A stretch of 49,862 nucleotides of DNA, taken from Lachnospiraceae bacterium. GTDB taxonomy: Bacteria; Bacillota; Clostridia; Lachnospirales; Lachnospiraceae. Location: NCBI GenBank assembly GCA_017448245.1, contig JAFSLV010000031.1, forward strand, positions 1 to 49,862, in the 5' to 3' direction. The translations under genes and the position numbers were made by a program. This document shows positions 20,595-35,432 of this stretch, piece by piece (the stretch's first letter is position 1; every line of letters starts with the position of its first letter). The notes under the pieces were generated by a model. The model had not been told where the DNA came from and searched no databases. It saw nothing but the letters and a program-made list of their open reading frames with translations.

Positions 20595-23500
20595 ATGATG
20601 AAAAAGAACAGGATGAGGACAGGTCATGCCCTGGTTGCGCTGCTGCTCGTTGCGGGGCTCATTGCGGGATGCGGCGGAGGTTCCGATACACCGGAGCGAG
20701 TCTCGACACAGGAGGCTTCCACACAGCAGACGGAAGAAGAGCCCGCAGAGGATGTGACGGAGGAAGAGGAGCCCGAAGAGGCTTCCGCGATCGAGGGCTT
20801 TCCCGCGCCCGGTGAAGTCGTCGAGGGCTTTGCGTTTGTGGAGGCGCGCGAGTTTCCGGTGATCAATGCGGACATCGGTCTGTTCGAGCATGAACAGACC
20901 GGCGCCAGGCTGATGTTTATCCGCAATGACGATACCAACCGCTCCTTTAATCTGACCTTTATGACGCGCGCGATCGACAATACGGGTCTGCCGCATGTCT
21001 TTGAGCATGCGACGCTCGGCGGAAGCGAAAAGTATCCGTCGAAGAATCTCTTTTTCAATCTCAGCTACCAGACCTACCAGACATTTATGAACGCGATGAC
21101 CTATGACGTCATGACGTCGTATCCGGTGGCGTCGCTTTCGGAAGCGCAGCTGTTAAAGCTGGCGGATTTCTATACCGACAGCTGTCTGCATCCGATGATC
21201 ATGACGGACGAGTCGATCTACCGCGAGGAAGCATGGAGATACCGTCTCGATGACGCGGACGCGCCGCTGACCATGGAAGGCACGGTCTATTCCGAGATGC
21301 TCGGTGCGATGGACCGTTCGAGCTGGTCCTATCAGAACGCGCTCAGGGAATCCTTCCCCGGATCGACGATCGGCAATATCTCCGGCGGCGACCCCGCCTT
21401 TATCCCGGAGATGACCTATGAATCGCTCAGGGACTATCACGATATGTATTATCATCCCTCCAATTGCATCGCCTATCTCTACGGCGACATCGAGGATTAT
21501 ACGGCATTTTTAAAGCTGCTCGACGAAGCGTTTGCGGAGTATGAGAAAAAGGAATTTACCTTTGAGGATACGGAGTATACACCGATCGAAGAGGCGGTGG
21601 TCGCGGAGTATCCTTTTGCGGCGGCGGCCGGTACCAGCACCGACCACGCGACGGACATCTATTATTCCTTTGTCTGCCGCGACATGACCGACGAGGAGCT
21701 GCATTACATGGATTATCTGATGGTGCTGTTCGGCGCGGACGCGTCGGATCTGTCACAGCGCTTGAAGACGGAGCTGCCCAACGGTCTCTTTACGGCCGGC
21801 ATGGTCTATTCGGGACCGGAGCCGCTCGTCGTCTTTATGCTCGAGAACGTCGAGCGCACGGATGCGGAGACGTTTAAAAACATCGTGGACGAAGAGATCG
21901 TATCGATGATCGAAAACGGATTCCCCGCGGAGCTCGTGGAGGGCGTCATGGCGACGCAGGAGCTCGAAAATAAAATCGTCCGTGAGCAGGCGAACGTTGG
22001 TGTCGAATTTGTCCAGGAGATGGCGTACAACTATGCGATCTCTTTTGATCCCTGGTATCTCCTCATCGATTATGAAGCGGTGACGATGATGGATCAGTGG
22101 AACGAGGACGGATCGTTCCGGGATACCGCGGAAAAATATCTGACGGAGACGGAGCTCACGACGCTGGTGACGACCTATACGGAGCCCGGGCTCAAGGAAG
22201 AACAGGAAGAGGCGCTCGCGCAGGAGCTCGCACAGATCAAGGAGGACATGACGGAGGAGGAGATCGAAGCGCTCGTTGCGCAGACCGATGCGGAAGAAGC
22301 GGAGGAAAGCGAAGAGGAAGCGGAAGAGACGGAGGATTATGTCAAGATGCTCACGGCGGTCACGGTCGACGAACTGCCGGAGGAGATCAAGGAATATGAC
22401 ATCACCGATGAAACCGCCGAAGAGGACAATATCCGTATGCTCTATGCGGTGGCCGGTGTCGACGGGGTCGGCATCAACCAGGTGATGCTCGACGCACAGG
22501 GAATTGCGCAGGAGGATCTGCATTATCTCAATCTCTTTACGCAGCTGACCTCGTATCTCGATACGACGGAGCACACGAGGGGCGAGATCGAGACGCTTTC
22601 GACCAGATATCTCTACAGCGGTTCGGTCAATGTGAGTCTGCAGCAGCCGGAGGAGACCGTGCATCCGTATCTGTCCTTTTCCTGGATCGCCAATACGGAG
22701 GATCTCGAAGAGGGATACGATCTGATGAACGAGATCATCTTTTCCTTAAAACTCGATGACGCAAAGAAGCTGGCGGAGAGCGTATCCTCGATCCGCTCGA
22801 CCCTGCGCTCTTCGATCAACGCGGCACCGCACCAGATCGCGGCGATCCGGGGGCTCGGACTCTATGACGATTACTACCGGATGAGCTCTTATCTGAACGG
22901 CGTCGATTACTATCTGTTCTTAGAGGAGGTCGAGGCCGCGCTCGAAGAGGACGCGGACGCCGTGATCGAGCGTCTGACACAGATACAGACGCAGCTCCAC
23001 AACCGCACCAATGCCGTCGTCTTCTTTGCGGGCGATGAGGAATACATCGAAACCAACAAGACACTCGCGGAGACATTTCTCGATGCGCTCGATGCCGAAG
23101 AGATCGAGCCCGTATCCTATGCGCTCGAAGCGCCGGCCGCGGAGGAGGCGCTGATCATCGAATCCAATGTCCAGTACAACGGCATCTTTGCGGGCTTTGA
23201 AGAGATGGGACTCGAAGAATACAGCGCGGACATGGAGGTCTTTACCTCCCTCGTGCTCGACCAGCTGCTGTATCCGCTGCTGCGCGACCAGTACGGAGCC
23301 TACAGCGTGATGCACGGTATCATCGAGGACAGCGGCATGTATCTGCTGACGTACCGCGACCCCAATATCGAGCAGACCTTTGCGGTCTATCAGACTCTGA
23401 CGGAGGAGCTCGAAGCGCAGGAATGGGATCAGGAGACGATCGACGGATATATCATGAGTACCTATGCCTACTACGCTATGCCGGAGGGCGAGCTGTCGGG

Positions 23501-24092
23501 CGCCATCAGTGCGCTGTCACTGGCCTTTGTCGGGGAGTCGCAGGACTATTTCCTCACGCAGATGCGCAAGATCAAGGAGACGACACCGGAGACGATACTC
23601 GGCTATGCGGGGATCTATGACAGGGCGATCGAGAACGGGTCGCTCTCGACGACGGGAAGCGCGGGCGCGATCGGCGCGGTCGAGGATATGTATACGTCCG
23701 TCCGCAATCCGTTCGGCGCCGCGGATCTGTCGGACGCGGCCTTCAGTGATCTCGCGGAAGACGATCCCAATTACGAATACGTGATGGCGGCCTATCAGGC
23801 AGGCTACATGCAGCCAAAGGACGAGGAGACCTTCGGTGTCGCGGACGATGCGACGGTCGGGGAATTTGCCCTGGCGCTCTTTACGCTGCTGGGCGGCTCC
23901 GGCACCGAGGACGACGCGGTTTCGATGCTTGCGGAAGCGGGGCTGCTTCCGAAAAATGCCAAGGCTTCCGATCCGCTCACCGTGCCGGTGCTCGAAGCAC
24001 TGGGGGCCGGCGGTGACATCGACTGGAGCGAGTATGTCGCGGGCGACGTGGTCACGCGCGGCGAGCTCGCACGGATTCTGATGGAAGAGTAA
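20595..24092 (+). CDS. M16C-family metalloprotease lipoprotein with SLH-like tail
   Basis: 1165 residues. Lipoprotein signal (GLIAGC, Cys26), an acidic Glu/Thr-rich spacer (about 30-68), then the insulinase/PreP fold. The inverted zinc motif HVFEH (His134, Glu137, His138) and the third ligand region VYSEM (Glu234) are intact, so it should be an active peptidase of the presequence-protease subfamily (M16C). A very acidic hinge (about 535-585) joins the two halves, as in PreP. The last 110 or so residues (from YEYVMAAYQAGYMQP) resemble S-layer-homology repeats, with a TRGELARILM end, suggesting extra cell-wall anchoring. AGGAGGG six bases before ATG; ATG 20598 is an alternative. Confidence 0.9.
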   Translation: MMKKNRMRTGHALVALLLVAGLIAGCGGGSDTPERVSTQEASTQQTEEEPAEDVTEEEEPEEASAIEGFPAPGEVVEGFAFVEAREFPVINADIGLFEHEQTGARLMFIRNDDTNRSFNLTFMTRAIDNTGLPHVFEHATLGGSEKYPSKNLFFNLSYQTYQTFMNAMTYDVMTSYPVASLSEAQLLKLADFYTDSCLHPMIMTDESIYREEAWRYRLDDADAPLTMEGTVYSEMLGAMDRSSWSYQNALRESFPGSTIGNISGGDPAFIPEMTYESLRDYHDMYYHPSNCIAYLYGDIEDYTAFLKLLDEAFAEYEKKEFTFEDTEYTPIEEAVVAEYPFAAAAGTSTDHATDIYYSFVCRDMTDEELHYMDYLMVLFGADASDLSQRLKTELPNGLFTAGMVYSGPEPLVVFMLENVERTDAETFKNIVDEEIVSMIENGFPAELVEGVMATQELENKIVREQANVGVEFVQEMAYNYAISFDPWYLLIDYEAVTMMDQWNEDGSFRDTAEKYLTETELTTLVTTYTEPGLKEEQEEALAQELAQIKEDMTEEEIEALVAQTDAEEAEESEEEAEETEDYVKMLTAVTVDELPEEIKEYDITDETAEEDNIRMLYAVAGVDGVGINQVMLDAQGIAQEDLHYLNLFTQLTSYLDTTEHTRGEIETLSTRYLYSGSVNVSLQQPEETVHPYLSFSWIANTEDLEEGYDLMNEIIFSLKLDDAKKLAESVSSIRSTLRSSINAAPHQIAAIRGLGLYDDYYRMSSYLNGVDYYLFLEEVEAALEEDADAVIERLTQIQTQLHNRTNAVVFFAGDEEYIETNKTLAETFLDALDAEEIEPVSYALEAPAAEEALIIESNVQYNGIFAGFEEMGLEEYSADMEVFTSLVLDQLLYPLLRDQYGAYSVMHGIIEDSGMYLLTYRDPNIEQTFAVYQTLTEELEAQEWDQETIDGYIMSTYAYYAMPEGELSGAISALSLAFVGESQDYFLTQMRKIKETTPETILGYAGIYDRAIENGSLSTTGSAGAIGAVEDMYTSVRNPFGAADLSDAAFSDLAEDDPNYEYVMAAYQAGYMQPKDEETFGVADDATVGEFALALFTLLGGSGTEDDAVSMLAEAGLLPKNAKASDPLTVPVLEALGAGGDIDWSEYVAGDVVTRGELARILMEE

Positions 24093-24181: not shown

Positions 24182-24211
24182 TTGACAAGCCCCCTGAGGG
24201 GGGCGTATGAT
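24182..24211 (+). promoter_or_regulatory. Promoter of the ytrA-type operon with a palindromic spacer
   Basis: TTGACA (24182-24187) and TATGAT (24206-24211) are 18 bases apart. The spacer contains GCCCCC-TGAG-GGGGGC (24189-24204), a six-base GC inverted repeat filling almost the whole spacer. A dyad inside a long spacer is the layout of promoters controlled by MerR-type activators, although no MerR gene is nearby. Confidence 0.7.
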
Positions 24212-24214
24212 CTT

Positions 24215-24239
24215 AGTGTACTAACCGAAATAGTACACT
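24215..24239. promoter_or_regulatory. YtrA-type operator
   Basis: AGTGTA-N13-TACACT, with nine-base perfect arms AGTGTACTA/TAGTACACT. This is the spacing and sequence of the Bacillus YtrA operator. It lies directly after the -10 box, where the GntR-family repressor encoded next would block initiation (autorepression). Confidence 0.85.
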
Positions 24240-24307
24240 TGTGACAACGGTGTCATGATCTTGTGTCTGCGGATGCGTAAGACACCTGATGTTGTGAGGA
24301 GATGCCA

Positions 24308-24691
24308 TTGCAGCTGATTGATTACCGGGACAGCCGGCCGATCTTTGAACAGATCGTCGACAATTTCAAAATGCAGATTCTGATGGGTGTGCTGGTCCCG
24401 GACGAGCAGATCCCTTCCGTGCGCACGCTCGCCGTGGAGCTCTCCGCCAATCCCAATACCATCCAGAAGGCCTACGGCGTATTGGAACGTGAGGGTTATA
24501 TCTACACGGTCAAGGGGAAGGGCGCGTTTGTGCGCGGCGATGAAAAATTAAAAGAGGACAAGAAGATGGAACTGGCAAGGCGCCTTAAGGCACTCTACCG
24601 CGAGGCGGACGCACTGGGACTCGCGCCCGAAGAGATCCGGGAGCTTGCGCTCGGCATGGAGGATCCGGAGGTGCCGGCGATGTCGGCATAA
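24308..24691 (+). CDS. GntR-family repressor, YtrA subfamily
   Basis: 127 residues from the TTG at 24308. A winged helix-turn-helix fills the N-terminal two thirds (IFEQIVDNFKMQILMG, VRTLAVELSANPNTIQKAY, GYIYTVKGKGAFV). A short C-terminal dimer helix (KMELARRLKALYREADALGL) follows in place of a large effector domain; that is the YtrA type, usually tied to ABC transporters. ATG 24302 abuts GAGGAG (24296-24301) with no spacing, while TTG 24308 has six bases, so I prefer TTG. It should bind the operator at 24215-24239 and control the genes downstream. The ATPase gene starts five bases after its stop. Confidence 0.9.
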   Translation: MQLIDYRDSRPIFEQIVDNFKMQILMGVLVPDEQIPSVRTLAVELSANPNTIQKAYGVLEREGYIYTVKGKGAFVRGDEKLKEDKKMELARRLKALYREADALGLAPEEIRELALGMEDPEVPAMSA

Positions 24692-24696
24692 TATCT

Positions 24697-25602
24697 ATGA
24701 TTGAAGCACTGACACTGACAAAAGCATACGGACGCACGACCGCGCTCAACCGCATCGGGTTGACCATCGAAGACGGCGAGATCTTCGGGCTCGTCGGCAC
24801 GAACGGTGCGGGCAAGTCGACGCTTCTCAGACTGATCGCGGGAGTGTTGCGGCCCACGGAGGGCAGCGTCACGCTCGATGCGCGTCCCGTCTACGACAAC
24901 CCCGCGGTCAAGCGCGAGATCTTTTTCGTGCCGGACGAAGCGTACTTTTTTACCAACAGTACGCCGCTCGAGATGATGCGCTACTATGCGATGATGTATC
25001 CGTCCTTTGACGAGATGCACTGCCTGAAGCTCCTCGGGAGCTTTTCCCTCGATCCGCGCAGGAAGATCGCGGAATTCAGCAAGGGCATGAAGAAGCAGCT
25101 CTTCATCTGCCTGGGGGTCGCCGCGCACGTGCGCTATCTCCTGCTCGACGAGACCTTTGACGGACTCGATCCGATCGCGAGGCAGGGTGCCAAGTCCATC
25201 TTTGCGGGACAGATGGCGGATGAGTCCCTCACGATCGTCATCGCCTCGCACTCGCTTCGGGAGCTCGAGGACATCTGTGACCACGTGGGACTCCTGCACG
25301 AGGGCGGCGTTTTGCTCTCGCGCGACGTCGAGTCGATGAAGCTCGGACTGCAGAAGGTACAGTGTGTCTTTGCGAGCGAGGAGGAAGCGGACAAGGTCCT
25401 TGCGGATGCGGAGGTCCTCGTGCACGATGTGCGCGGCAGGCTCCATACGATCACGCTGCGCGGAACACGCGAGGAAACACAGGCGAGGCTGGACAGGGCA
25501 CAGACGGTATTTACGGAGATGCTGACACTTTCTCTTGAGGAAGTATTTATTTCGGAAACGGAGGCGGCGGGTTATGACGTCAAAAAGTTCATCCTTGATT
25601 AA
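24697..25602 (+). CDS. ABC transporter ATP-binding protein
   Basis: 301 residues. Walker A GTNGAGKST (34-42), signature FSKGMKKQ (127-134) in place of LSGGQ, Walker B YLLLDETFDGLDP (Asp151, Glu152) and an H-loop in IVIASHSLRELED. The degenerate signature and about 75 residues after the H-loop are usual for YtrB/EcsA-like ATPases that work with large membrane partners. No ribosome binding site of its own; the start lies five bases after the repressor stop, so translation is probably coupled. Its end overlaps the permease start by 29 bases. Confidence 0.92.
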   Translation: MIEALTLTKAYGRTTALNRIGLTIEDGEIFGLVGTNGAGKSTLLRLIAGVLRPTEGSVTLDARPVYDNPAVKREIFFVPDEAYFFTNSTPLEMMRYYAMMYPSFDEMHCLKLLGSFSLDPRRKIAEFSKGMKKQLFICLGVAAHVRYLLLDETFDGLDPIARQGAKSIFAGQMADESLTIVIASHSLRELEDICDHVGLLHEGGVLLSRDVESMKLGLQKVQCVFASEEEADKVLADAEVLVHDVRGRLHTITLRGTREETQARLDRAQTVFTEMLTLSLEEVFISETEAAGYDVKKFILD

Positions 25603-27802
25603 GCCGCTTTCACGCAGGGCGATCCTGCGCGAGATGACGATGCGCAGACTCTGGGCGGTGGCTTTTTCGCTCATCCCGATGCTGCTCGTCTATCCCGCGG
25701 CCTGCGCGGTGATGCTGGCGGGCGGACGCAATTACATGAATACCATGACACAGTACGGCGAGGTGTTTGACCGCAAGGTCTATCTGTCCACGAGGCTGGC
25801 ATCGTTTTTCGAAAACGGCAGTGTTGCCGTAGTGGTTGTGGTCTTTCTCGGCATACTGCTCGGGCTGCAGGGCTTTGCGTTTCTGTTTTCGACGCAGCAG
25901 GTCGACTTTTTCGAATCGCAGCCGATGAGCAGGAGACAGCGGTTTTTGCGGATTACGTCGCACAGCCTGCTGATATTTCTGACCGTGGAGCTGTTGAGTC
26001 TCTTTCTGACGCTGCTGACCGGTGCCGCGCTCGGCGCACTCTCGGAGATCGTTCTGTATGAAGCGGTATATGCGCTGATCAGGGATCTGTGTACCTTCCT
26101 TGCGGTATATATGGTGGCGGTACTGGCCGCGATGATCACGGGCAATCTCGTCTATGCGATCATCATCTGCGTGTATCTGCTTATCTATCAGATCACGGCC
26201 GCCATGGTTATCACCGACTATATGTCACGGTTTTTCAGGACCTTTGCGCACGGATATACGGAGCTCGGCGCGCCGTTGAGCGTGCCGTGGCATCTGACGC
26301 AGATCATGAGGCTGCATGACGAAGCGGGTCTTGTATCCGTCAGCGGCGTGACGCTGACGAGTCCCCTTGTCCGCTTCGGCAATATGCTGCGTACCTGCGC
26401 GCCGCATATCTTCGGACTCCTTCTGATCTCCCTGATTATGGGAGCGCTGTCCTATATCGCGTACAAAAAAAGACGCGCGGAGGACGCGGGAGCGACGCTG
26501 GTCGCGTATCCTCTGCATGTCGCCGTCAAATTCGGTGCGTCCGTGCTCGGCGCGCTCCTTGCGGGATCGTTTCTCAGGATTCTCTCCTACGGTTACGGCG
26601 ATGACGCTTCCTCGTTTTTCGGTCTTGCGGTCGCCGTCCTGATGAGTGCCGCGCTGATCGCGATGATCACGGAGGCGATGTACCGCAGGGGCGTGCGGTA
26701 TGCGTTGAAGGGCGCGGTGCATCTGCCGGTGATCCTCGCGCTGACCTATCTGATCCTTCTGGTCTTCAAGCTCGACGTCATCGGTTATGACCGCTTTACG
26801 CCGACTGCGGCGCGCGTCGAGAGCTGTGCGCTTCTTTCGAACACCAATTACTATTATGGGGACAATGTCTGTATCGGAGAGAACGGTGACATCATCGGGA
26901 GCGCTTCGGATTTTGCGGAAAAATACATGTATCTGACCGACATCGACGCGATCGCGGAGCTCGTCATGATCGATCGCGAGACCTTTGGCAATCTGACCGA
27001 GGAGGAGATCTATGATATCCCGGGAAGAGACCACACCCTGCTCTACCGGATGAAAAACGGAGAAAAAAAATACCGCACCGTCCGCATCCCCTATGCCGCG
27101 GACGAGGAACTGATGGAGCGGATCGTCGGCAGCGAACCGTATAAAAACGGTTCCGAGCAGGTCTGTCACGACCAGGCGCTCGTATCGCTCGCTTCCACAA
27201 CGGGCAGACTCCTCTATGACAGCGGTGCACAGACCAGGGAGGCAGAGGGAGCGCTGTATGAGGAATTTGCCGAATGCTTCCGCGCGGATCTGGCCAACCG
27301 CACGTACCGCGAGATGCGTGACGAGCAGGTGGAGGGCTATGTGCTCTTTGAATATACGGCATCCAACCGCAGCACACGATGGATTTCGTTTTCGGTCTAT
27401 CCTTCCTATGAGGAGACGATCGCCTTTTTGAAAAAGCACCGTCTGTATACGGAGAGATATGTCTCCGCGGAGGATGTGCGCTCGATCGATATCGAGTACG
27501 GTTACGAAACGGAACAGACACAGATGATCAACGGGGAAGGCTATACCGACTGGCAATGGGAGACGGTGCGATTTACCGGAAAAGAGGAGATCGAGGCGAT
27601 TCTCTCCGCGCTCGTGTCCGACCGGATGCTGAGCCCCTGGTTTGACCGCACGCGGGTGCTGGAGCAGATATATGTCACGGCGATCAATTATGATATGGAA
27701 CCGGGCGCCGTCTCTTCCGGCATGTATCATCCGGCGGACTGGACGGGGCGCTATCTGCTGAAGGACAGGCTCCCCGGCTTCCTCGAGGAATATGTCAGAT
27801 GA
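25574..27802 (+). CDS. ABC transporter permease with large extracytoplasmic domain
   Basis: 742 residues from ATG 25574, chosen because GGAGGCGG lies just upstream; the frame is open further left but inside the ATPase gene. About six helices in the first 300 residues, two or three more around 325-410, then a roughly 330-residue soluble domain facing outward (from LDVIGYDRFTPTAARVESC). The soluble part resembles the DUF6449-type tail found on permeases beside YtrA regulators. The pair probably exports or senses cell-envelope-active compounds; the substrate is unknown. Its TGA overlaps the ATG of the next gene (ATGA). Confidence 0.82.
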   Translation: MTSKSSSLIKPLSRRAILREMTMRRLWAVAFSLIPMLLVYPAACAVMLAGGRNYMNTMTQYGEVFDRKVYLSTRLASFFENGSVAVVVVVFLGILLGLQGFAFLFSTQQVDFFESQPMSRRQRFLRITSHSLLIFLTVELLSLFLTLLTGAALGALSEIVLYEAVYALIRDLCTFLAVYMVAVLAAMITGNLVYAIIICVYLLIYQITAAMVITDYMSRFFRTFAHGYTELGAPLSVPWHLTQIMRLHDEAGLVSVSGVTLTSPLVRFGNMLRTCAPHIFGLLLISLIMGALSYIAYKKRRAEDAGATLVAYPLHVAVKFGASVLGALLAGSFLRILSYGYGDDASSFFGLAVAVLMSAALIAMITEAMYRRGVRYALKGAVHLPVILALTYLILLVFKLDVIGYDRFTPTAARVESCALLSNTNYYYGDNVCIGENGDIIGSASDFAEKYMYLTDIDAIAELVMIDRETFGNLTEEEIYDIPGRDHTLLYRMKNGEKKYRTVRIPYAADEELMERIVGSEPYKNGSEQVCHDQALVSLASTTGRLLYDSGAQTREAEGALYEEFAECFRADLANRTYREMRDEQVEGYVLFEYTASNRSTRWISFSVYPSYEETIAFLKKHRLYTERYVSAEDVRSIDIEYGYETEQTQMINGEGYTDWQWETVRFTGKEEIEAILSALVSDRMLSPWFDRTRVLEQIYVTAINYDMEPGAVSSGMYHPADWTGRYLLKDRLPGFLEEYVR

Positions 27803-28725
27803 AGATCGCCGCGCTGCTTGCGGAAAACGCAAGGAAAAAAGTGCATACGGAAAAGAGCTCCCGGATGACGAGAAAGGCCAGGTACCTCTCGCTTGCGTAT
27901 CTGTCGCCCTCGCTGATCGGCGTGCTGACATTTTTTGTCGTGCCTTTTATGGTGGTCGTCTATTACGCGCTCGTCAACAATCCGGTGCAGGCGGAATTTG
28001 TGGGGCTGAGCAACTTTATCAGTGTATGGAATAACCGGGCGTTTCAGCGTGCGGCGGAGAATTCGCTGTTGTTTTCCGCAATCGCGGTGCCGCTCGCGGT
28101 GGTGCTGTCGCTGCTGCTGGCGGTCGTGATGGAATCAAAGATCCCTTTTAAGAGCCGCTTCCGTACCTTTTTCCTCTCGCCGATCATGGTGCCGATCGCA
28201 TCGGTTGTACTGATCTGGCAGGTGCTGTTTCATTTCAACGGCATCGTCAACGAGTGGATGCGGATGATCGGCGCGGGCAAGATCGACTGGCTCAAATCGG
28301 AATACGCGCTGATCCCGGTCGTGTTGCTGTTTTTGTGGAAAAACTTAGGCTACAACATGATCCTCTTTATGGCGGCGCTCTCGAGCGTGCCGGGGGATCT
28401 GATCGAGGTGGCCGCACTCGAGGGCGCGACCAAGTGGCAGATCTTCTACAAGATCAAGCTGCGCTATCTCTCGTCGACGATTCTGTTTGTGGCGATCATG
28501 TCGCTCATCAGCTCGTTCAAGGTATTCCGCGAGGTCTACCTGCTGGCGGGGGATTATCCGTATGATTCGCTGTACATGCTGCAGCATTACATGAACAATA
28601 CGTTCAATTCGCTCGATTACCAGAAGCTCTCCGCCGCGGCGATCATCATGTCACTTGTCATCATCGTGCTGTTCTTTGTGATGTACAAGGCGGAGGACAT
28701 CTACGGAAAGGACGTGGAGGGGTGA
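27799..28725 (+). CDS. Sugar-type ABC transporter permease (MalF/UgpA-like)
   Basis: 308 residues, six membrane helices. The EAA loop that contacts the ATPase is clear: EVAALEGATKWQIFYKIKLRYL region, about 200-221. The first 30 residues are charged and cytoplasmic (KKVHTEKSSRMTRKARYL). By family it imports oligosaccharides or similar solutes with a MalG-type partner, which follows at 28830. No dedicated sugar-importer ATPase of the MalK/MsmX type is in the window, so a shared ATPase encoded elsewhere is likely. ATGA overlap with the upstream permease. The stop lies in the first unit of a 14-base tandem repeat. Confidence 0.9.
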   Translation: MKIAALLAENARKKVHTEKSSRMTRKARYLSLAYLSPSLIGVLTFFVVPFMVVVYYALVNNPVQAEFVGLSNFISVWNNRAFQRAAENSLLFSAIAVPLAVVLSLLLAVVMESKIPFKSRFRTFFLSPIMVPIASVVLIWQVLFHFNGIVNEWMRMIGAGKIDWLKSEYALIPVVLLFLWKNLGYNMILFMAALSSVPGDLIEVAALEGATKWQIFYKIKLRYLSSTILFVAIMSLISSFKVFREVYLLAGDYPYDSLYMLQHYMNNTFNSLDYQKLSAAAIIMSLVIIVLFFVMYKAEDIYGKDVEG

Positions 28726-28809
28726 ACGCTCCGGGGTGAACGCTCCGGGGTGAACGCTCCGGGGGAGCGTTCACGGGTGCGCTTTGACGCGCCGGGCGCG
28801 TCAGCACCC
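28719..28809. repeat. Three 14-base tandem repeats and two hairpins between permease genes
   Basis: GGGGTGAACGCTCC occurs three times without change (28719-28760). It is followed by its inverse, forming an 11-base-pair stem GTGAACGCTCC/GGAGCGTTCAC around GGG (28750-28774). A second hairpin has perfect nine-base arms TGACGCGCC/GGCGCGTCA (28785-28803), inside GGGTGC/GCACCC. There is no T-run, so these are not classic terminators; they may set the mRNA ratio of the two permeases or be repeat-element debris. Confidence 0.85.
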
Positions 28810-28829
28810 CGGGGAATCACGGGAAAGTG

Positions 28830-29729
28830 ATGACTAAAAGAAAAAAACGTATCATCGGAAATATCGAAATCGGCATCGGCACACTGATCTGTGCGTTTTT
28901 TGCCGTGCTCTTCCTTGCGCCGATCATCCTCACGATCACCAACTCCTTTATGAGCGCGCAGGAGATCAGCGCCAATTACGGCACGGTCTTTGCGACGACG
29001 CAGACGGGCGGCAGGGTCTTTATCTCAAAGACCGTGACCCTCAAATTCATTCCGGACATGGTGAGCTTTACGCAGTACATCAACGTGCTGCTCAAGAGCC
29101 CCGAGTATCTGCTCAAATTCTGGAACTCGGTGATCTACGTCGTGCCGATCGTGGTGTTCCAGCTGTTTGTGGCGGCGCTGGCTTCGTACGGATTTGCGAG
29201 ATACGAGGGACGCGTGCGCAGTATCATCTTTTTCTTCTATGTGATACTGATGCTGATGCCCTATCAGGTGACGCTCGTGCCCAATTTCCTCGTGTCGAAC
29301 TGGCTGCATCTGACGGGCACCAGATGGGCGATCTGGCTGCCCGGCATCTTCAGTCCGTTTGCGGTCTATCTGCTGACCAAATTTATCCGCAAGATCCCGT
29401 ACTCGGTGATCGAGGCGGCGCAGATCGACGGGGCGAGCGAGTGGCAGATTTTTTCCAGAGTCTGCATGCCGTTGTGCAAGGGGGGCATCTTTTCGATCGC
29501 CATCCTGATCTTTATCGATTACTGGAACATGGTGGAGCAGCCGCTGATCCTGCTGGCGGACGACGAGCTGCATCCGCTGTCGGTGTTTTTGTCAAGAATC
29601 AACGCGGGAGAGATCTCGCTTGCGTTTGCGGTCGCGGTGATCTACATGGTGCCGCCACTGCTGATGTTTCTGTACGGTGAGGATTATCTCGTGGAGGGGA
29701 TCACCTACCAGGGCGGCATCAAAGGGTAG
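28830..29729 (+). CDS. Sugar-type ABC transporter permease (MalG-like)
   Basis: 299 residues, six membrane helices. The first periplasmic-side loop is unusually long (about 35-105). The EAA loop reads EAAQIDGASEWQIFSRVCMP (about 190-210) and is followed by the IDYWNMVEQP helix typical of MalG partners. I chose ATG 28830; the GTG one codon earlier (28827) would also work with GGGAAAG upstream, which is a weak ribosome binding site. It pairs with the MalF-like protein encoded upstream and probably uses the solute-binding lipoprotein at 32599-35310. Confidence 0.9.
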   Translation: MTKRKKRIIGNIEIGIGTLICAFFAVLFLAPIILTITNSFMSAQEISANYGTVFATTQTGGRVFISKTVTLKFIPDMVSFTQYINVLLKSPEYLLKFWNSVIYVVPIVVFQLFVAALASYGFARYEGRVRSIIFFFYVILMLMPYQVTLVPNFLVSNWLHLTGTRWAIWLPGIFSPFAVYLLTKFIRKIPYSVIEAAQIDGASEWQIFSRVCMPLCKGGIFSIAILIFIDYWNMVEQPLILLADDELHPLSVFLSRINAGEISLAFAVAVIYMVPPLLMFLYGEDYLVEGITYQGGIKG

Positions 29730-29767
29730 GATGCCGCAGTCGTAACAGCTGACAGGGGGAAAAGAAA

Positions 29768-31492
29768 ATGGAACAGGCAACCGAAAACGAAAAGAAGGTG
29801 CAAAAGCGCAAGGACCGGATCAAGAATGTGCTGATCGTATTCCTGGTCGTGATGCTGCTGCTCACGTTCTTTTCGGGGACGATCCAGAACTGGTCACTGC
29901 CCGAGGTCGCGACGGCCTACGTGCAGTCCGGCACGATCTCGCCGCAGATCCGGGCCTCCGGGACGGTCGAGGCGGACGATCCGTACAACATCGTGCTGAC
30001 GGAGACGAGGAAGATCGCATCCGTTGCGGTCAGGGTCGGCGACGAGGTCAAAAAGGACGACGTGATCTATTATCTGGAGGACGCGGAGTCGACGGAGCTC
30101 GAGGAGGCGGAGAAGAGACTGCGTACGGCGGAGCTTGATTTTGAGCTCACGCTCTTCGGGGAAAACGTCACGGACGCGACGATCTTGCGCGCGAGCAACG
30201 GACAGGTCGCGTCGATCAGCGAATACCGCACGCGTCTTGCGGATGTCAACGCAAGACTCCTCGCGGCGGAGGAAGCGGACAAATCGGTGCAGGCGAGGAT
30301 CGATGCGCTGACGCTTGATTATAACCGCAGGATCGCTTCGCTCGGGGAAGCGGATACGAGCGCGCAGCAGTATTCGAATGCCGAGGCGGAAGCGGAGGTC
30401 GCAAGGCTCAATAACGAGAGGACCGCGCAGGAGGCGATCGTGACGGCCAAACAGGCGGAGATGACGGCAAATATGGTGGAGGATCCTCTGGGGAGCGGGA
30501 ATTTCAGACCGCCGAGCGATACGGATCCTGCGGAAGCCACGCAGCACGCGGCATACACCGCCGCAGAGACGGCACGCAACGACGCGCAGAGCCAGATCAA
30601 CAACATCAACGCGCGGATCAGCGAGCTCAATAACCGCATCGCCAACAATACCCGCGACGCGTCCCAGATCACCACGCAGACCGCGCAGCAAAAGGCGCAG
30701 ATCGAGCAGGAATACACGCTCGCCAAGCTCGCCCTCGATACGGAGAAGGCACAAACCGCGGCGGCACTCGAAGAGGTGACGGCGGAGCGCGCGGAGCTCT
30801 TAGGATCGATCAGCAACGAGATCACGCTCTATAATAAGCTCCAGGAGGTCGAGGACGCACGCAGGGAGGTCGATCGTCTCAGGGAGCGCACGACGGGCGC
30901 CACGGTCAACGCACCCGTTGAGGGCACGGTGACGAGCCTTGCCTATGTCGCGGGACAGTCGACCAAGCCGGACGAGACGGCGGCCGTCATCCAGGTCGCC
31001 GGCAAGGCGATGACGATGTCGGTTTCGGTGACGGCGGAACAGGCCAAGAGCCTGAAGACCGGCGACATGGTCGATCCGCAGAACGCCTGGGCCTACAGCT
31101 CTTTTAAGGCACAGATCTCTTCGATCCGGCCCGATCCGCAGGATCCCGCGGGCAAGCGGATCGTGACGATCACCATCGATACGCCGGAGGTGCAGGCGGG
31201 ACAGACCGTCAACATCCGGATGGGCGAGGGACAGCGCAACTATGAAATGACGATTCCCAACTCCGCGATCCGTGAGGACAACAACGGCAAGTTCATCCTC
31301 ATCATCAACGAGCGTTCGTCACCGCTGCGCAACCGCTATATCGCACAGCGTGTCGATGTGGATGTCGTCGCACAGGATGATACGACGAGCGCCATCACCG
31401 CGGCACTCGAGGGCTACGAATACGTGATCACGACGGCTTCCGCGCCGATCCGCTCGGGACAGGAAGTGCGTCTGGCAAATACCGGTTATTAA
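29768..31492 (+). CDS. HlyD/RND-type membrane fusion protein (adaptor subunit)
   Basis: 574 residues. One N-terminal membrane helix (about 20-40), a biotinyl-lipoyl half-motif (GTISPQIRASGTVEADDP, VRVGDEVKKDDVIYYL), a long coiled-coil hairpin (about 105-375, rich in Ala, Glu, Arg and Gln), the second half (VNAPVEGTVTSLAYVAGQ) and beta-barrel domains to the end. Such adaptors bridge an exporter such as MacB to the outside. In a one-membrane cell the hairpin would project into the wall. AGGGGGAAAAG before ATG. It lies between importer-type permeases and a MacB-type core domain, an unusual setting. Confidence 0.88.
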   Translation: MEQATENEKKVQKRKDRIKNVLIVFLVVMLLLTFFSGTIQNWSLPEVATAYVQSGTISPQIRASGTVEADDPYNIVLTETRKIASVAVRVGDEVKKDDVIYYLEDAESTELEEAEKRLRTAELDFELTLFGENVTDATILRASNGQVASISEYRTRLADVNARLLAAEEADKSVQARIDALTLDYNRRIASLGEADTSAQQYSNAEAEAEVARLNNERTAQEAIVTAKQAEMTANMVEDPLGSGNFRPPSDTDPAEATQHAAYTAAETARNDAQSQINNINARISELNNRIANNTRDASQITTQTAQQKAQIEQEYTLAKLALDTEKAQTAAALEEVTAERAELLGSISNEITLYNKLQEVEDARREVDRLRERTTGATVNAPVEGTVTSLAYVAGQSTKPDETAAVIQVAGKAMTMSVSVTAEQAKSLKTGDMVDPQNAWAYSSFKAQISSIRPDPQDPAGKRIVTITIDTPEVQAGQTVNIRMGEGQRNYEMTIPNSAIREDNNGKFILIINERSSPLRNRYIAQRVDVDVVAQDDTTSAITAALEGYEYVITTASAPIRSGQEVRLANTGY

Positions 31493-31500
31493 GAGAAAGC

Positions 31501-32574
31501 ATGTACAAGGTACGGATCAAAAAACCAAACCGCAGACAGATCGTACAGATCGCCGTTGTCGCTGCCTGCCTCCTGCTCTGGCTGGTATTGCAGCTGGTGC
31601 GGACGCATACGATACGTTCCGTCGGTGACATCCGGGGCGCCGAGCGTTTTGCGCCGGAGGGCGGCTATGCGCAGATCGGCTGTTACTTTGCGGACACGGC
31701 GGGCGCTTCGATCGACCGTTATTCGGAATTTTCCTTCCTGATCGACCAGGCGCTGACCCAAAACGCGATCGAGGCAAAGGAGCCGGACGCGAGGCTCTTT
31801 GTCGACTGCTACACGGTCGAGGGAGCGGTTACGATATCGCGCGCGGGGAAAAACGCGGAGGCCACGGCGATCGGAACGGGCGGTGATTTCTTTTTCCTGC
31901 ATCCCCTGGAACTCGTGAGCGGACAGTATTACAGTCCGGATGCGCTCACGGAGGACCAGATCCTGATCGACGAGCATCTGGCGTGGCAGCTCTTTGGCGG
32001 CAACGATGTTGCGGGACTGAGCGTCAATATCGGCGGCAAGCCCCACATCGTGCGCGGCGTCGTGCGGCGTGCGGAAGGGAGACTGAGGGAAAAGGCGGGC
32101 GCTTTTGAGGCGCTGGTCTGGCTGCCCGCGGAGTCGCTCAGAGAAAACGGGATGCTGCGCGCCGGCAACGAGTCGATGACCTGCTATGAGGTCGTTATGC
32201 CGGATCCGGTCAGGGATTTTGCCGTGACGCAGGTGCGGGAAGCCTTCCGGATGGAAGAGGGACAGGCGGAGATCATCGATCATACGACGCGCTTTTCCAA
32301 TTTCAGGCTGCTCGATGTCCTCAGGGAATATGACATCCGCAGCATGATGAACCAGGCGATCCGTTATCCTTATTGGGAAAATATCGCGCGCAGCAGGGAG
32401 GATTTTCTGGCGCTGGTGATGGTGCTGCAGGCGCTCTTCCTCGCGATCCCCATCGTGCTGCTGACGGTGAAGATCGTATGCGCCTACCGGAACAAAACAT
32501 GGCGTGCCGCCGAAGTCTTTTCCGGCATCGGTGATTGTATATACGGCATGAGAGTTAAAAGAAAGAAAACATAA
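31501..32574 (+). CDS. Stand-alone MacB-type extracytoplasmic core domain, membrane anchored at both ends
   Basis: 357 residues: one helix near the N-terminus (about 14-33), an external domain (about 36-300) and one helix near the C-terminus (about 302-325) ending in a basic tail. The external part has the features of the MacB periplasmic core domain: LVSGQYYSPDALTEDQILIDEHLAWQLFG, then VAGLSVNIGGKPHIVRGVV. MacB/FtsX permeases normally have three more helices after this domain; these are absent and no MacB ATPase is nearby. It starts eight bases after the adaptor stop with only AGAGAAAG as ribosome binding site. It may act as a static partner of the adaptor. Confidence 0.75.
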   Translation: MYKVRIKKPNRRQIVQIAVVAACLLLWLVLQLVRTHTIRSVGDIRGAERFAPEGGYAQIGCYFADTAGASIDRYSEFSFLIDQALTQNAIEAKEPDARLFVDCYTVEGAVTISRAGKNAEATAIGTGGDFFFLHPLELVSGQYYSPDALTEDQILIDEHLAWQLFGGNDVAGLSVNIGGKPHIVRGVVRRAEGRLREKAGAFEALVWLPAESLRENGMLRAGNESMTCYEVVMPDPVRDFAVTQVREAFRMEEGQAEIIDHTTRFSNFRLLDVLREYDIRSMMNQAIRYPYWENIARSREDFLALVMVLQALFLAIPIVLLTVKIVCAYRNKTWRAAEVFSGIGDCIYGMRVKRKKT

Positions 32575-32598
32575 GCAAGAAGGAGAAAGGAACAGGGT

Positions 32599-35310
32599 AT
32601 GAAAAAGAAGACAACCATGATGCGGCTGGCCGCCTGCCTTTTGGCGGCAGTGATGCTCGGTGCCTGCGGAGGCGGCGGGAATGCCGGATCCTCCGAAAGT
32701 ACGGGCCAGGGGGGCACGGGCTCCGGCGGCGGACGTCAGGAAGGGACGGTCAACAAGGATCTCGTCTACCGGGAAGAAGAGGTGACATTTTCGGACAGCT
32801 CCATACGGATGGATGAGCTCAGCCGTCCCGTGTTTAAGGACGGAAGGGTCTATTCCGCGGGCAATCACTATGAAGAGATGCCGTTGGGCCCGGAAGGCGA
32901 AATGCCCGAAGGAGGGGAGATGCCTCCGGAAGGGGAGATGCCCGAAGGAGGAGAGGCTCCCGCGGAAGGTGAAATTCCGCCCGGAGACGGAATGCCTCCG
33001 GAAGATCCTGCGGAAGTGGTTGGCCATTCCGTCTTTTACCGGATTGATTTTTCTCCGGAGGGCGGCGATGTCAACCGGATCGTGCTCGATGACAATGTCA
33101 CCGATTATTATTACGGCAGCGAGTGCTTTGATAACGAATACAATATGTATACCGTCAAGACGATCTACGGGGAGCGCACGGGAGAGGACGACGTGCTCTT
33201 TTATGAGATGCTCAACAGCTCGGGCGCAGGCGGCGGTGCCATGATGATGCCCGCGGGAGGCGGCGAACCCCCTTCGGACACCGGAGAGATGGAGGATGAG
33301 CTGCCCGCACCCGCAGAGGAAGAGGTGACGGAAGAAGAGACGCGGGAAGTGACGGAAGAAACGGAAGAAACCGGGACCGGAGAGCCCGGCATGGAGATGC
33401 CCGTATGGGACGATATGGGTCCGGCTGCCGAGCAGTACTTCCTGATGAAATATGACGCGGAAGGCAATGTTGTCTTTGAAACGCAGATGCAGCCGCCGGC
33501 CAATGCCGATTTTTACAGCATCGGCTCGATGGTGCATGTGGAGGATGTCGGTGTGCTCGTGAGCAGTAATACCGGAATCGATCTCTACAGCGAGGAGGAC
33601 GGCTCTTTTATCAAGACCGTGTACGAGACCGACCAGTGGCCCGACATGCTCGTCAACGGCAAGGGCGAGGTCTTTATCATGGGCTTTGAGCAGGGCGGCA
33701 TACGCATGCAGCAATTTGACCCGGAAAAGGGCGAGATGGATGCGGGCGAGATGCTCCCCGACAGGATGTGGATGTATGATATCTACAGCATGAAGCCGGG
33801 ACTGTCTTCGGACTTTCTTTTGACGGATGAAAGCGGCATCTACACGTGGAACGTCGGGGACGATGCGCCGGAGCGGATCGTGAGCTATATCGATTCGGAT
33901 TTGGATATCAATTATATCAATAACTATGTGCAGCTGAGCGAGACGGAATTTTTCCTCTTCTATTTCAGGGAGTCGGAGACGATGGACGCGCCTTCCACGG
34001 TCGTCTGCAGCAGGCTGACCAAGGTACCGCCGGAGGAGGTGGCCGACAAGACGGTGCTGACGCTCGGCACCAACTGGATCAGCTCCGAGGTGCGGCGCGA
34101 GGTGGTCAATTTTAACCGGACCAACGATACCTACCGGATCAGTGTGATCGACTATTCCAAATATATCACGGAGGGCAACTGGGACGCCGGCTATGCGCAG
34201 ATGAACCAGGACATCATCTCCGGCAATGCGCCCGACCTGATGATCCTCGAGAGCGCCGTGCAGATCGAATCGTATGAGGCCAAGGGGATCCTCGAGCCGC
34301 TCGATGAGTATTTTGCCAATGATCCGGAGATCTCACTGGACAATTACATGACCAATGTGTTTGATGCCTACCGCTACCGTGACAAGCTCTACATGGTCAT
34401 CCCGACCTTCAGTGCGCGTTCGTATGTGATGAAAAAGAAATTTGCCGATTCGATCGACAGATGGGACTACGAGACGCTCACAAGGATGGTCAATGACATG
34501 GGGCTCAAGTATGACGAGCTCTTCGGCTGGCCGATGTCGAACGAGGACTTCGTACAGATGGCCATCCTGCTCGATGTGCAGTCCTTTGTCGACTGGGGCG
34601 AACAGCGGGCCAAGTTTGACACAAAAGAATTTATCGATCTGCTCAATTTTGCGGGGAATTTCCCGTCCCGGGACCAGATTCCGGACAACTGGTGGGAAGA
34701 GGGAGACCGCGAGACGTATTTCCGCAACGACCGGTCGATTCTGACGCAGGCGTATTATGACAGCTTTGAAGAGTATGCGCAGATGCGTTACGGCGTCTTT
34801 GGCGAGGAGGTTGCCTTTATCGGTTTCCCGAGAGAGGGCGGCGAAGGCGGCAGCACCGTGATGGCGGGAATGCAGCTGGCGATGAATGCCAAGGCCAAGG
34901 ACAAGGACGCGTGCTGGCAGTTCATGCGCAGATTCCTGCTGGACGAGTATCAGGACCGTTATATCGGGAGTTACGGCCTGCCGGTCGGCAAAAAGCAGCT
35001 CGAGGCCAAGGCCGAGCGCGCGATGGAGCGGCAGTTCTGGATCAACGAGGCGACCGGGGAAAAGGTGTATTACGACAACACCTATTATCTCGGCGGCGAG
35101 GAGATCACGATCCCTCCGCTGACGCAGGAGGACGTGGATCAGTGCATGGCACTCTTTGAGAGCCTGGACGCGCCCTACAGCTATAATGAAAAAATGATGG
35201 AGATGGTGATGGAAGAGATCACGCCGTTCTTCAAGGGACAAAAGAGCGCGGAGGAGGTCGCGCGGATCATCCAGTCCAAGATGCAGGTCTATATCGACGA
35301 GAACTCGTAA
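32599..35310 (+). CDS. Large extracellular solute-binding lipoprotein with propeller-like N-domain
   Basis: 903 residues. Signal peptide with VMLGAC (lipidated Cys23), Gly/Ser-rich spacer, then an N-terminal beta-rich region (about 50-480) interrupted by a run of GEMPEGGEMPPEGEMPEGG-type repeats (about 93-136) and an acidic Glu/Thr stretch (about 233-265). The repeating strand pattern suggests a propeller. The C-terminal part (from KTVLTLGTNWISSEVRREVV, about 485-903) is a family-1 solute-binding protein of the kind that serves MalF/MalG-type importers. AAGGAG and AAAGGA precede the ATG. It is the last gene of the run from 24308, and a repeat-derived hairpin follows. The ligand is not readable. 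Confidence 0.88.
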   Translation: MKKKTTMMRLAACLLAAVMLGACGGGGNAGSSESTGQGGTGSGGGRQEGTVNKDLVYREEEVTFSDSSIRMDELSRPVFKDGRVYSAGNHYEEMPLGPEGEMPEGGEMPPEGEMPEGGEAPAEGEIPPGDGMPPEDPAEVVGHSVFYRIDFSPEGGDVNRIVLDDNVTDYYYGSECFDNEYNMYTVKTIYGERTGEDDVLFYEMLNSSGAGGGAMMMPAGGGEPPSDTGEMEDELPAPAEEEVTEEETREVTEETEETGTGEPGMEMPVWDDMGPAAEQYFLMKYDAEGNVVFETQMQPPANADFYSIGSMVHVEDVGVLVSSNTGIDLYSEEDGSFIKTVYETDQWPDMLVNGKGEVFIMGFEQGGIRMQQFDPEKGEMDAGEMLPDRMWMYDIYSMKPGLSSDFLLTDESGIYTWNVGDDAPERIVSYIDSDLDINYINNYVQLSETEFFLFYFRESETMDAPSTVVCSRLTKVPPEEVADKTVLTLGTNWISSEVRREVVNFNRTNDTYRISVIDYSKYITEGNWDAGYAQMNQDIISGNAPDLMILESAVQIESYEAKGILEPLDEYFANDPEISLDNYMTNVFDAYRYRDKLYMVIPTFSARSYVMKKKFADSIDRWDYETLTRMVNDMGLKYDELFGWPMSNEDFVQMAILLDVQSFVDWGEQRAKFDTKEFIDLLNFAGNFPSRDQIPDNWWEEGDRETYFRNDRSILTQAYYDSFEEYAQMRYGVFGEEVAFIGFPREGGEGGSTVMAGMQLAMNAKAKDKDACWQFMRRFLLDEYQDRYIGSYGLPVGKKQLEAKAERAMERQFWINEATGEKVYYDNTYYLGGEEITIPPLTQEDVDQCMALFESLDAPYSYNEKMMEMVMEEITPFFKGQKSAEEVARIIQSKMQVYIDENS

Positions 35311-35403: not shown

Positions 35404-35432
35404 TTGACGCGCAGGGGACGTGACGGTATGAT
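35404..35432 (+). promoter_or_regulatory. Promoter of the SGNH lipoprotein gene, apparently leaderless
   Basis: TTGACG (35404-35409), a 17-base spacer and TATGAT (35427-35432). Seven bases later comes ATG 35440. The -10 box overlaps the earlier ATG 35428, so a transcript from here would begin at 35440 without a leader. Confidence 0.6.

Follow-up and report, generated by a model that had tools for sequence, protein, structure and literature searches.

Gene organisation of the locus

The DNA analysed here, hereafter the window, is a stretch of 49,862 nucleotides (G+C content of 56%) from a Lachnospiraceae bacterium (assembly GCA_017448245.1, contig JAFSLV010000031.1). It contains a run of genes in which the permeases of a MalFG-type ATP-binding cassette (ABC) importer stand beside an HlyD/RND-type adaptor, designated H, a MacB-like core protein, designated M, and a large binding lipoprotein. 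Reading of the open reading frames placed eight genes between 24302 and 35310, all on the + strand and either overlapping or separated by gaps of at most 101 bases, as listed below together with a promoter-like site.

24182..24211, + strand: promoter-like site, TTGACA-18-TATGAT, 11/12 against the consensus, identified by consensus match only
24302..24691, + strand: GntR (YtrA/PmtR-like) regulator, optional module (Pfam GntR, 8.8e-13)
24697..25602, + strand: ABC ATPase of exporter type (PmtA/DrrA-like), optional module (ABC_tran, 4.3e-23; NCBIfam matches below cut-offs)
25571..27802, + strand: polytopic membrane protein, DUF6449-like, optional module (DUF6449, 2.7e-4, under the curated cut-off; hydropathy)
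27799..28725, + strand: MalF-like importer permease, core (BPD_transp_1, 2.6e-17; conserved partner across cassettes)
28827..29729, + strand: MalG-like importer permease of a distinct subfamily, core (BPD_transp_1, 5.3e-12)
29768..31492, + strand: H, HlyD/RND-type adaptor, core (HlyD_3, 4.7e-8, above cut-off; N-terminal transmembrane segment, TM)
31501..32574, + strand: M, MacB-like core protein arranged TM1-MacB_PCD-TM2, core (MacB_PCD, 5.3e-10; without FtsX, without ATPase)
32599..35310, + strand: 903-residue lipoprotein with a repeat-containing N-terminal part and a solute-binding domain (SBP_bac_1, 2.5e-8)

The co-directional run described in the first-pass annotation was recovered in full, with all eight genes at their places on one strand and each backed by a Pfam match (that to DUF6449 below its cut-off). 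The top NCBIfam match of the GntR protein was PmtR, under its cut-off, and the DUF6449-like gene runs into the MalF gene by a 4-base overlap. The next good promoter-like site on the + strand was found at 35404 (10/12) and a weaker one at 27925 (9/12). This spacing would fit one transcript but is no proof of it; because the nine sites found in all barely exceed the shuffled mean of 5.7, the one-transcript reading is only suggestive. The first three genes are referred to below as the trio, and MalF, MalG, H and M with their binding proteins as the cassette; families, genomes and regions carry our own labels (f, G and L, respectively).

Conservation of the MalF-MalG-H-M set

Co-occurrence of the adaptor and core-domain genes with the permeases across genomes had been set as the refutation test of the first-pass annotation, and was assessed in four scans. 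In scan (a), M of the window was compared with 145 relatives, of which 75, nearly all of the same genus, gave a match; 39 of the 40 fetched regions display MalF-MalG-H-M in this order, the exception (L054) being an ordinary MacB locus. Scan (b) used as search pattern the membrane-proximal YPYWENxAR motif, which belongs to the most conserved stretch of M outside its core. It covered 595 candidate stretches in named genomes, and the best 80 of 531 relatives, from Butyrivibrio, Acetatifactor, Lachnotalea, Kineothrix and others (mostly Lachnospiraceae, with several genomes shared with scan (a)), constitute the named loci. H lies beside M in all 80, and the order MalF-MalG-H-M is kept in 75/75 loci uncut by a contig end (five are cut), two of which have H split over two reading frames. 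Scanning the named-genome contigs with the window M as a single sequence returned nothing, whereas the alignment-based scan did find relatives; a plasmid search with one M protein gave no match.

Scan (c) extended the comparison with an M profile to the order (392 genomes) and the phylum (398 genomes) at a cut-off of 1e-8, giving matches in 75 and 76 genomes, respectively, in which high scores reach further genera and families and the low-score tail consists of ordinary MacB. Forty fetched regions held cassettes in f1, f2, f5, f17, f37 and f57, with canonical HlyD-ATPase-MacB loci among the low scores. In scan (d), a MalG profile built from cassette members, and thus blind to H and M, was run against 391 genomes of the class at 1e-55, yielding 58 matches in 53 genomes, from which 32 regions across families, holding 33 MalG genes above 150 bits, were fetched. 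Near MalG genes scoring at least 228 bits, H was present in 28/29 cases and M in 22/29, and near those at 193-226 bits neither was found (0/4 for each), the dividing score (228 versus 226 bits) having been noticed afterwards rather than preset. The H count combines 27 cases by script with L316, and the second copy in L326 is credited with the H of the neighbouring copy. The only high-scoring MalG without H (L324) lies on a contig that ends 145 bases past MalG, and the seven without M include L324 and L325, both at contig ends. Elsewhere the set is kept in a changed gene order: H-M-SBP-MalF-MalG in L316 and SBP-SBP-H-M-MalF-MalG in L327 (SBP, solute-binding protein), and H before MalF in L332. 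The adaptor and core-domain genes thus do accompany the permeases in other genomes, and the refutation test did not refute the proposal.

A census of 123 fetched regions, holding 110 M-like proteins above 30 bits, separated two kinds of M. A cassette-type MalG is nearby for 87 of them, with HlyD adjacent to 86 (all but the second L326 copy), a MalK-size ATPase adjacent to nine, a MacB-type ATPase adjacent to none and an FtsX coupling motif, by simple pattern, in none. The other 23 have HlyD adjacent in 22 cases, a MacB-type ATPase adjacent in 13 and the FtsX motif in 11; five of these (L145, L146, L148, L152 and L162) are not clearly canonical, being short contigs, a fragment, a fusion of M with an OppB-type permease, and a variant.

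Trees of selected rows, built by a quick method that gave long-branch warnings, agree with this division. The 37 cassette rows of MalG form one group (Shimodaira-Hasegawa-like approximate likelihood ratio test, SH-aLRT, 98) apart from the generic MalG of the window genome and others; 37 cassette rows of H separate from 16 others, the canonical adaptors (SH-aLRT 100); and in the M tree 17 ordinary rows and one mislabelled row group together with support 100, apart from 37 cassette rows. Three rows mislabelled by the distance rule (L043_6948 and L135_4562 for MalG, L168_2323 for M) were in the runs but set aside in reading; the two MalG rows fall outside the cassette group, one being an ordinary MalG from the neighbourhood and the other probably a spurious frame. 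The same groups recur in the trees of H, M and MalG, namely f1 (Lachnospiraceae-type) with f17 and f57, f37 with f105, and f5 with f18 (the place of f2 being less certain), which fits inheritance of the cassette as a unit. At the level of gene content, these comparisons demonstrate that a special MalF/MalG subfamily, an HlyD adaptor and a usually ATPase-less M keep together as a set.

The M and H proteins

In M of the window, two hydrophobic segments (residues ~14-32 and ~298-326) flank the core. Of its earlier description as a membrane-anchored MacB-type core lacking the rest of MacB, the absence of FtsX and ATPase stands and the single anchor does not. The Pfam FtsX domain was detected in 0/81 M proteins from the window plus the named genomes and in 0/18 from distant cassettes, 17 of which match MacB_PCD (for two of the 18, L145 and L146, the contig is too short for MalFG to be seen). 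It was present in all 31 MacB control rows, 30 distinct proteins picked from low-scoring matches. The rows behind these FtsX counts are interrelated, many of them coming from a single genus, and are not independent events. Two hydrophobic segments are typical of the window M and its nearer relatives; most members examined of f5, f18, f37 and f105 have three to five, roughly as in MacB, which has four, but still show no FtsX match. Longer M proteins were also noticed, of 684 residues (L046:8588-10642), 530 residues (L045:9140-10732) and 557 residues (L136:9590-11263), the extra length in L045 and L046 being low-complexity Ser/Gly/Asn-rich inserts.

In H of the window, ~277 residues lie between the two half-motifs and presumably form an alpha-hairpin. 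A uniquely long, wall-spanning hairpin was considered and dropped: insert lengths of 96-410 residues in cassettes (median 211, n=37) overlap those of 79-317 in controls (median 160.5, n=16), so that length is not diagnostic. A search with HlyD of G662 against 299 genomes at 1e-30 gave matches in its own genus only.

A natural fusion bears on the site at which M acts. At L152:9791-11773 (G153, family f16 of the same order), a 660-residue protein is encoded between HlyD and an OppC-like gene; the M profile aligns to its residues 4-216 with 94 bits, MacB_PCD matches this part at 1.1e-5 (26.2 bits, under its cut-off of 27), and residues 465-657 match BPD_transp_1 at 8.7e-40, as an OppB-type permease. 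The fusion was spotted by reading the protein and confirmed by Pfam; the automatic screen, which used cassette profiles without an OppB profile, gave none. Three other fetched OppB loci contained neither H nor M. This one M-OppB fusion, in one draft genome, argues for M working at an importer permease. Together with the near-complete co-occurrence in the loci examined, it renders well supported the suggestion of the first-pass annotation that the adaptor and core domain work with the importer. The interpretation offered there is thus supported in part, its ligand-passing conduit through the wall being speculative.

Permeases and the putative energising ATPase

MalF and MalG are a pair of BPD_transp_1 permeases with an EAA region, as in CUT1/type I importers. 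In the EAA region of MalG, E196, A198, D201 and G202 are invariant in 17/17 aligned sequences and A197 is found in at least 90%; the window MalG scores 545 bits, whereas the second-best MalG in its genome reaches 113 bits. An ABC ATPase bearing the OB_MalK domain is encoded inside nine cassettes of five families (f17, f57, f37, f105 and f182), 9/9 above cut-off, and in some families, judged by this gene content, the MalK-type ATPase evidently belongs to the set. The earlier statement that no sugar ATPase is present holds for the operon of the window; elsewhere in the genome, three OB_MalK matches occur, among them an orphan (G000:C7) with no MalF/MalG-like gene in the surrounding 15 kb and with 53-59% identity to the nine in-cassette MalK-type ATPases. 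A passage of PMC12838199 assigns a promiscuous msmK to a cello-oligosaccharide transporter as its ATPase. Given this precedent and the orphan MalK-type ATPase, it appears ordinary that the operon has no sugar ATPase of its own.

The binding lipoprotein and its likely ligand

Cys23 of the lipoprotein is invariant in 71/71 aligned sequences. The top match of the family profile in the PDB was 7x0o, CbpC of Clostridium thermocellum (4.3e-31). Across cassettes, the binding domains match CbpC, YesO and oligosaccharide-binding proteins, and CbpC is also the nearest PDB match of the short binding proteins encoded in cassettes L255 and L159. CbpC carries an eight-residue insertion that is absent from the cassette profile in the alignment, and its PDB chain of 438 residues is without the N-terminal part of the window lipoprotein. 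Profile self-comparison revealed an internal repeat in this N-terminal part (E 1.8e-6), for which no Pfam match was found in the window protein up to E 0.1; 42 relatives of this part gave scattered weak Pfam matches, some to propeller families, and NHL-type PDB matches of the lipoprotein had E values of 0.13-0.35. The solute-binding domain of the proposed two-domain architecture is hence confirmed by SBP_bac_1 and CbpC, and the propeller is hinted at by these weak Pfam and NHL matches. In L044, L049, L050, L057, L063 and L070, which belong to the same genus, M is followed by a row of three to five genes for binding lipoproteins, some of these rows being cut by the end of the fetched region.

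A review, in the passages covered, reports from earlier work that sugars from glucose to cellopentaose were bound by CbpC at 0.28-0.49 µM, and states that transporter C, to which CbpC belongs, takes part in cellodextrin uptake (PMC11212667), and the CbpC operon of C. thermocellum is reported in part of another paper to rise on xylose (PMC7471329). Neighbouring genes were also inspected, 77 of 128 downstream and 43 of 111 upstream candidates being scanned in addition to three in-cassette ATPases; the proteins were mostly of housekeeping kinds, and a phosphorylase of glycoside hydrolase family 94 (GH94) is encoded downstream of one cassette (L313:14817-17306, family f200). Judged by the matches of the binding domains, an oligosaccharide would be the likeliest ligand.

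Distribution of the upstream trio

The full trio occurs in 29 of the 80 named loci. The other 51 comprise 39 without it, despite 9.4 kb or more of sequence between M and the upstream end of the locus, and 12 that are cut short. It is absent from the fetched cassettes of f5, f17, f18, f37, f57 and f105, and was not detected in the 32 class-level regions. Signalling to the ABC pair, which the first-pass annotation had offered as one role of the adaptor and core domain, is not supported as a general function by this distribution, by which the trio is an added, optional module, mainly of the Butyrivibrio branch. Within the window, the upstream ABC ATPase is separated from M by four genes.

A M16C/PreP-like peptidase with an SLH domain is encoded directly upstream of the run (20595-24092); in the two nearest relatives (L031 and L032), an M16 protein lies directly 5' of MalF and the GntR trio was not found. 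Further upstream (10855-14811), the window encodes a 1318-residue clostripain-family peptidase with BspA-type leucine-rich repeats.

A proposed importer with an exporter-derived accessory

The recurrence of this odd gene set in many bacterial families makes it look like a little-noticed form of importer with extra apparatus on the outside. From gene content and domain matches, we lean towards a CUT1 (MalFG)-type, binding-protein-dependent ABC importer with an exporter-derived extracellular accessory, and hold it somewhat more probable than otherwise. MalFG would be powered by an orphan MalK/MsmX-like ATPase of the same genome. M would not pump, since the coupling domain of MacB is missing. MacB meets its adaptor MacA through the extracellular core, and M keeps this core, which suggests that M may serve as a mount by which an oligomeric collar of HlyD is kept above the outer face of MalFG. 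This collar could project into the wall zone and gather or guide the lipid-anchored binding proteins, up to five per cassette, which would deliver the ligand, most likely an oligosaccharide, to MalFG. A bolder form of this proposal is tentative and distinctly less probable: HlyD collars on ATPase-less MacB cores would be extracellular docking towers or ducts for intake, bringing binding lipoproteins together at the importer permeases and passing ligand inward across the wall zone, and the H-M module would be portable, having been attached at least twice (to MalFG, and to OppBC by fusion).

Several observations weigh against the importer with an accessory. In L328, L331, L332, L335 and L337, MalFG and an adaptor-like gene stand together but no M was found next to them, and the H match is short and weak (30-52 bits) in L328, L332, L335 and L337; L331 has a full-length H with MalFG and no M. 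These loci, with H full-length or weak and without M, suggest that MalFG may pair primarily with H, with M as an additional mount. For one L326 copy with M, no full-length H belonging to it was detected, and the whole-length fusion match was obtained in only one of 7 genomes of f16. No glycoside hydrolase is among the 25 commonest Pfam families of the 77 downstream or 43 upstream neighbours. In passages of one study (PMC9601137), CbpC bound no tested sugar, its pocket being blocked by a loop, and C. thermocellum with transporter C inactivated grew normally on glucose, cellobiose and Avicel, so that ligand binding by CbpC is contested between this study and the parts of the review (PMC11212667) covered here.

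Some of these points would favour an importer for a non-sugar ligand, such as a wall fragment, a peptide or an amphiphile; since MacAB-type systems handle such molecules, an adaptor and a MacB core could be of use to it. The absence of glycoside hydrolases from the commonest neighbour families agrees with it, as does the fusion of an M-like core to an OppB-type permease between HlyD and OppC, but the binding domains match CbpC, YesO and oligosaccharide-binding proteins, GH94 stands beside the L313 cassette and the CbpC operon is up on xylose in the part of PMC7471329 covered, which leaves this alternative unlikely. Marginally less probable still is a sensor, in which binding lipoproteins detect a ligand or the state of the envelope and H and M relay the signal via MalFG or else, in the case of Butyrivibrio, to the ABC pair under GntR control. 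The blocked pocket without a bound sugar and the lack of a growth defect on three substrates, as given in passages of the single study PMC9601137, the mostly housekeeping neighbours and the overlap by which the trio runs into MalF in the window speak for sensing; energised transport is indicated instead by the MalK-type ATPases of nine cassettes and by the conservation of the EAA region in MalG. In 39 named loci with sufficient flanking sequence there is no trio, and the review (PMC11212667, in the passages covered) has CbpC binding sugars at submicromolar concentrations and transporter C engaged in cellodextrin uptake.

It is improbable that H and M, together with the ABC ATPase and DUF6449-like protein encoded upstream, make up an exporter that has no more than the operon in common with the importer. 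Adaptors and MacB cores are textbook exporter parts and the ATPase and DUF6449-like genes stand in the same run in many Butyrivibrio loci, but MalF-MalG-H-M persists without the trio in other lineages, a distribution that disfavours this candidate, and M is fused to an importer permease. Least of all do we credit a neighbourhood kept by descent or chance without a functional link, for although order can persist in close relatives and many loci come from one genus, the set is spread over many families within the class and reaches genomes of a second class in the phylum (f37, f57 and f105), with the order changed in some, and the MalG search blind to H and M recovers both.

Relation to known systems

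Transporter C of C. thermocellum (Cthe_2125-2128) is probably a relative of the cassettes, which it resembles in having two importer permease genes (msdC1 and msdC2) and a binding protein, CbpC, to which the cassette binding domains have their best PDB match. A figure legend of PMC9601137 lists an AcrA-type gene among the sugar ABC operons of C. thermocellum, and the adaptor is not discussed in the passages covered; from the gene counts in those passages, we infer that Cthe_2127 is the acrA gene. Unlike the cassette, transporter C apparently lacks M, as it has four genes in all by those passages. Searching with the CbpC sequence against 249 genomes gave nothing at 1e-15, which is uninformative because the sample was without a known relative of C. 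thermocellum.

CUT1 importers (MalFGK2, UgpAEBC and the MsmX/MsmK-served ones of Bacillota) share with the cassette MalF/MalG, a lipoprotein binding protein and a MalK-type ATPase, which is in cis in nine cassettes and putatively shared in the window genome. The cassette MalG differs from theirs as a distinct subfamily, and to our knowledge no known CUT1 system has an HlyD adaptor or a MacB core. MacAB-TolC and Gram-positive MacAB-like pumps (YknXYZ and Spr0693-0695) have, like the cassette, an HlyD-family adaptor and the MacB extracellular core. The cassette departs from them in having neither a MacB ATPase nor the FtsX coupling domain, in having importer permeases instead, and in an H that forms a clade apart from canonical adaptors, though HlyD_3 is above cut-off. 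Ytr-type operons, like the window, hold a GntR regulator, an ABC ATPase, a membrane protein and a MacB-like protein in one run. They differ in that the cassette M is without FtsX and an ATPase of its own and that the trio is absent from many relatives, so that GntR and ABC genes are not, as a rule, linked with the MacB-like gene here. No description of an importer with an HlyD adaptor and a MacB core was found among open-licence PubMed Central (PMC) papers, covered mostly as titles and the starts of abstracts, which does not show absence from print; one candidate was discarded because 'MACB' in the part of PMC12838199 covered is a strain name.

Adaptors and MacB cores are taught as efflux parts. 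If their union with importer permeases is widespread and clade-specific, Gram-positive importers could own an extracellular accessory complex, which raises the role of H and M in uptake as a question for the bench. If the proposal is true, ABC importers would include a kind in which an adaptor is the third component, and many 'HlyD' and 'MacB' annotations in gut bacteria would not be efflux pumps.

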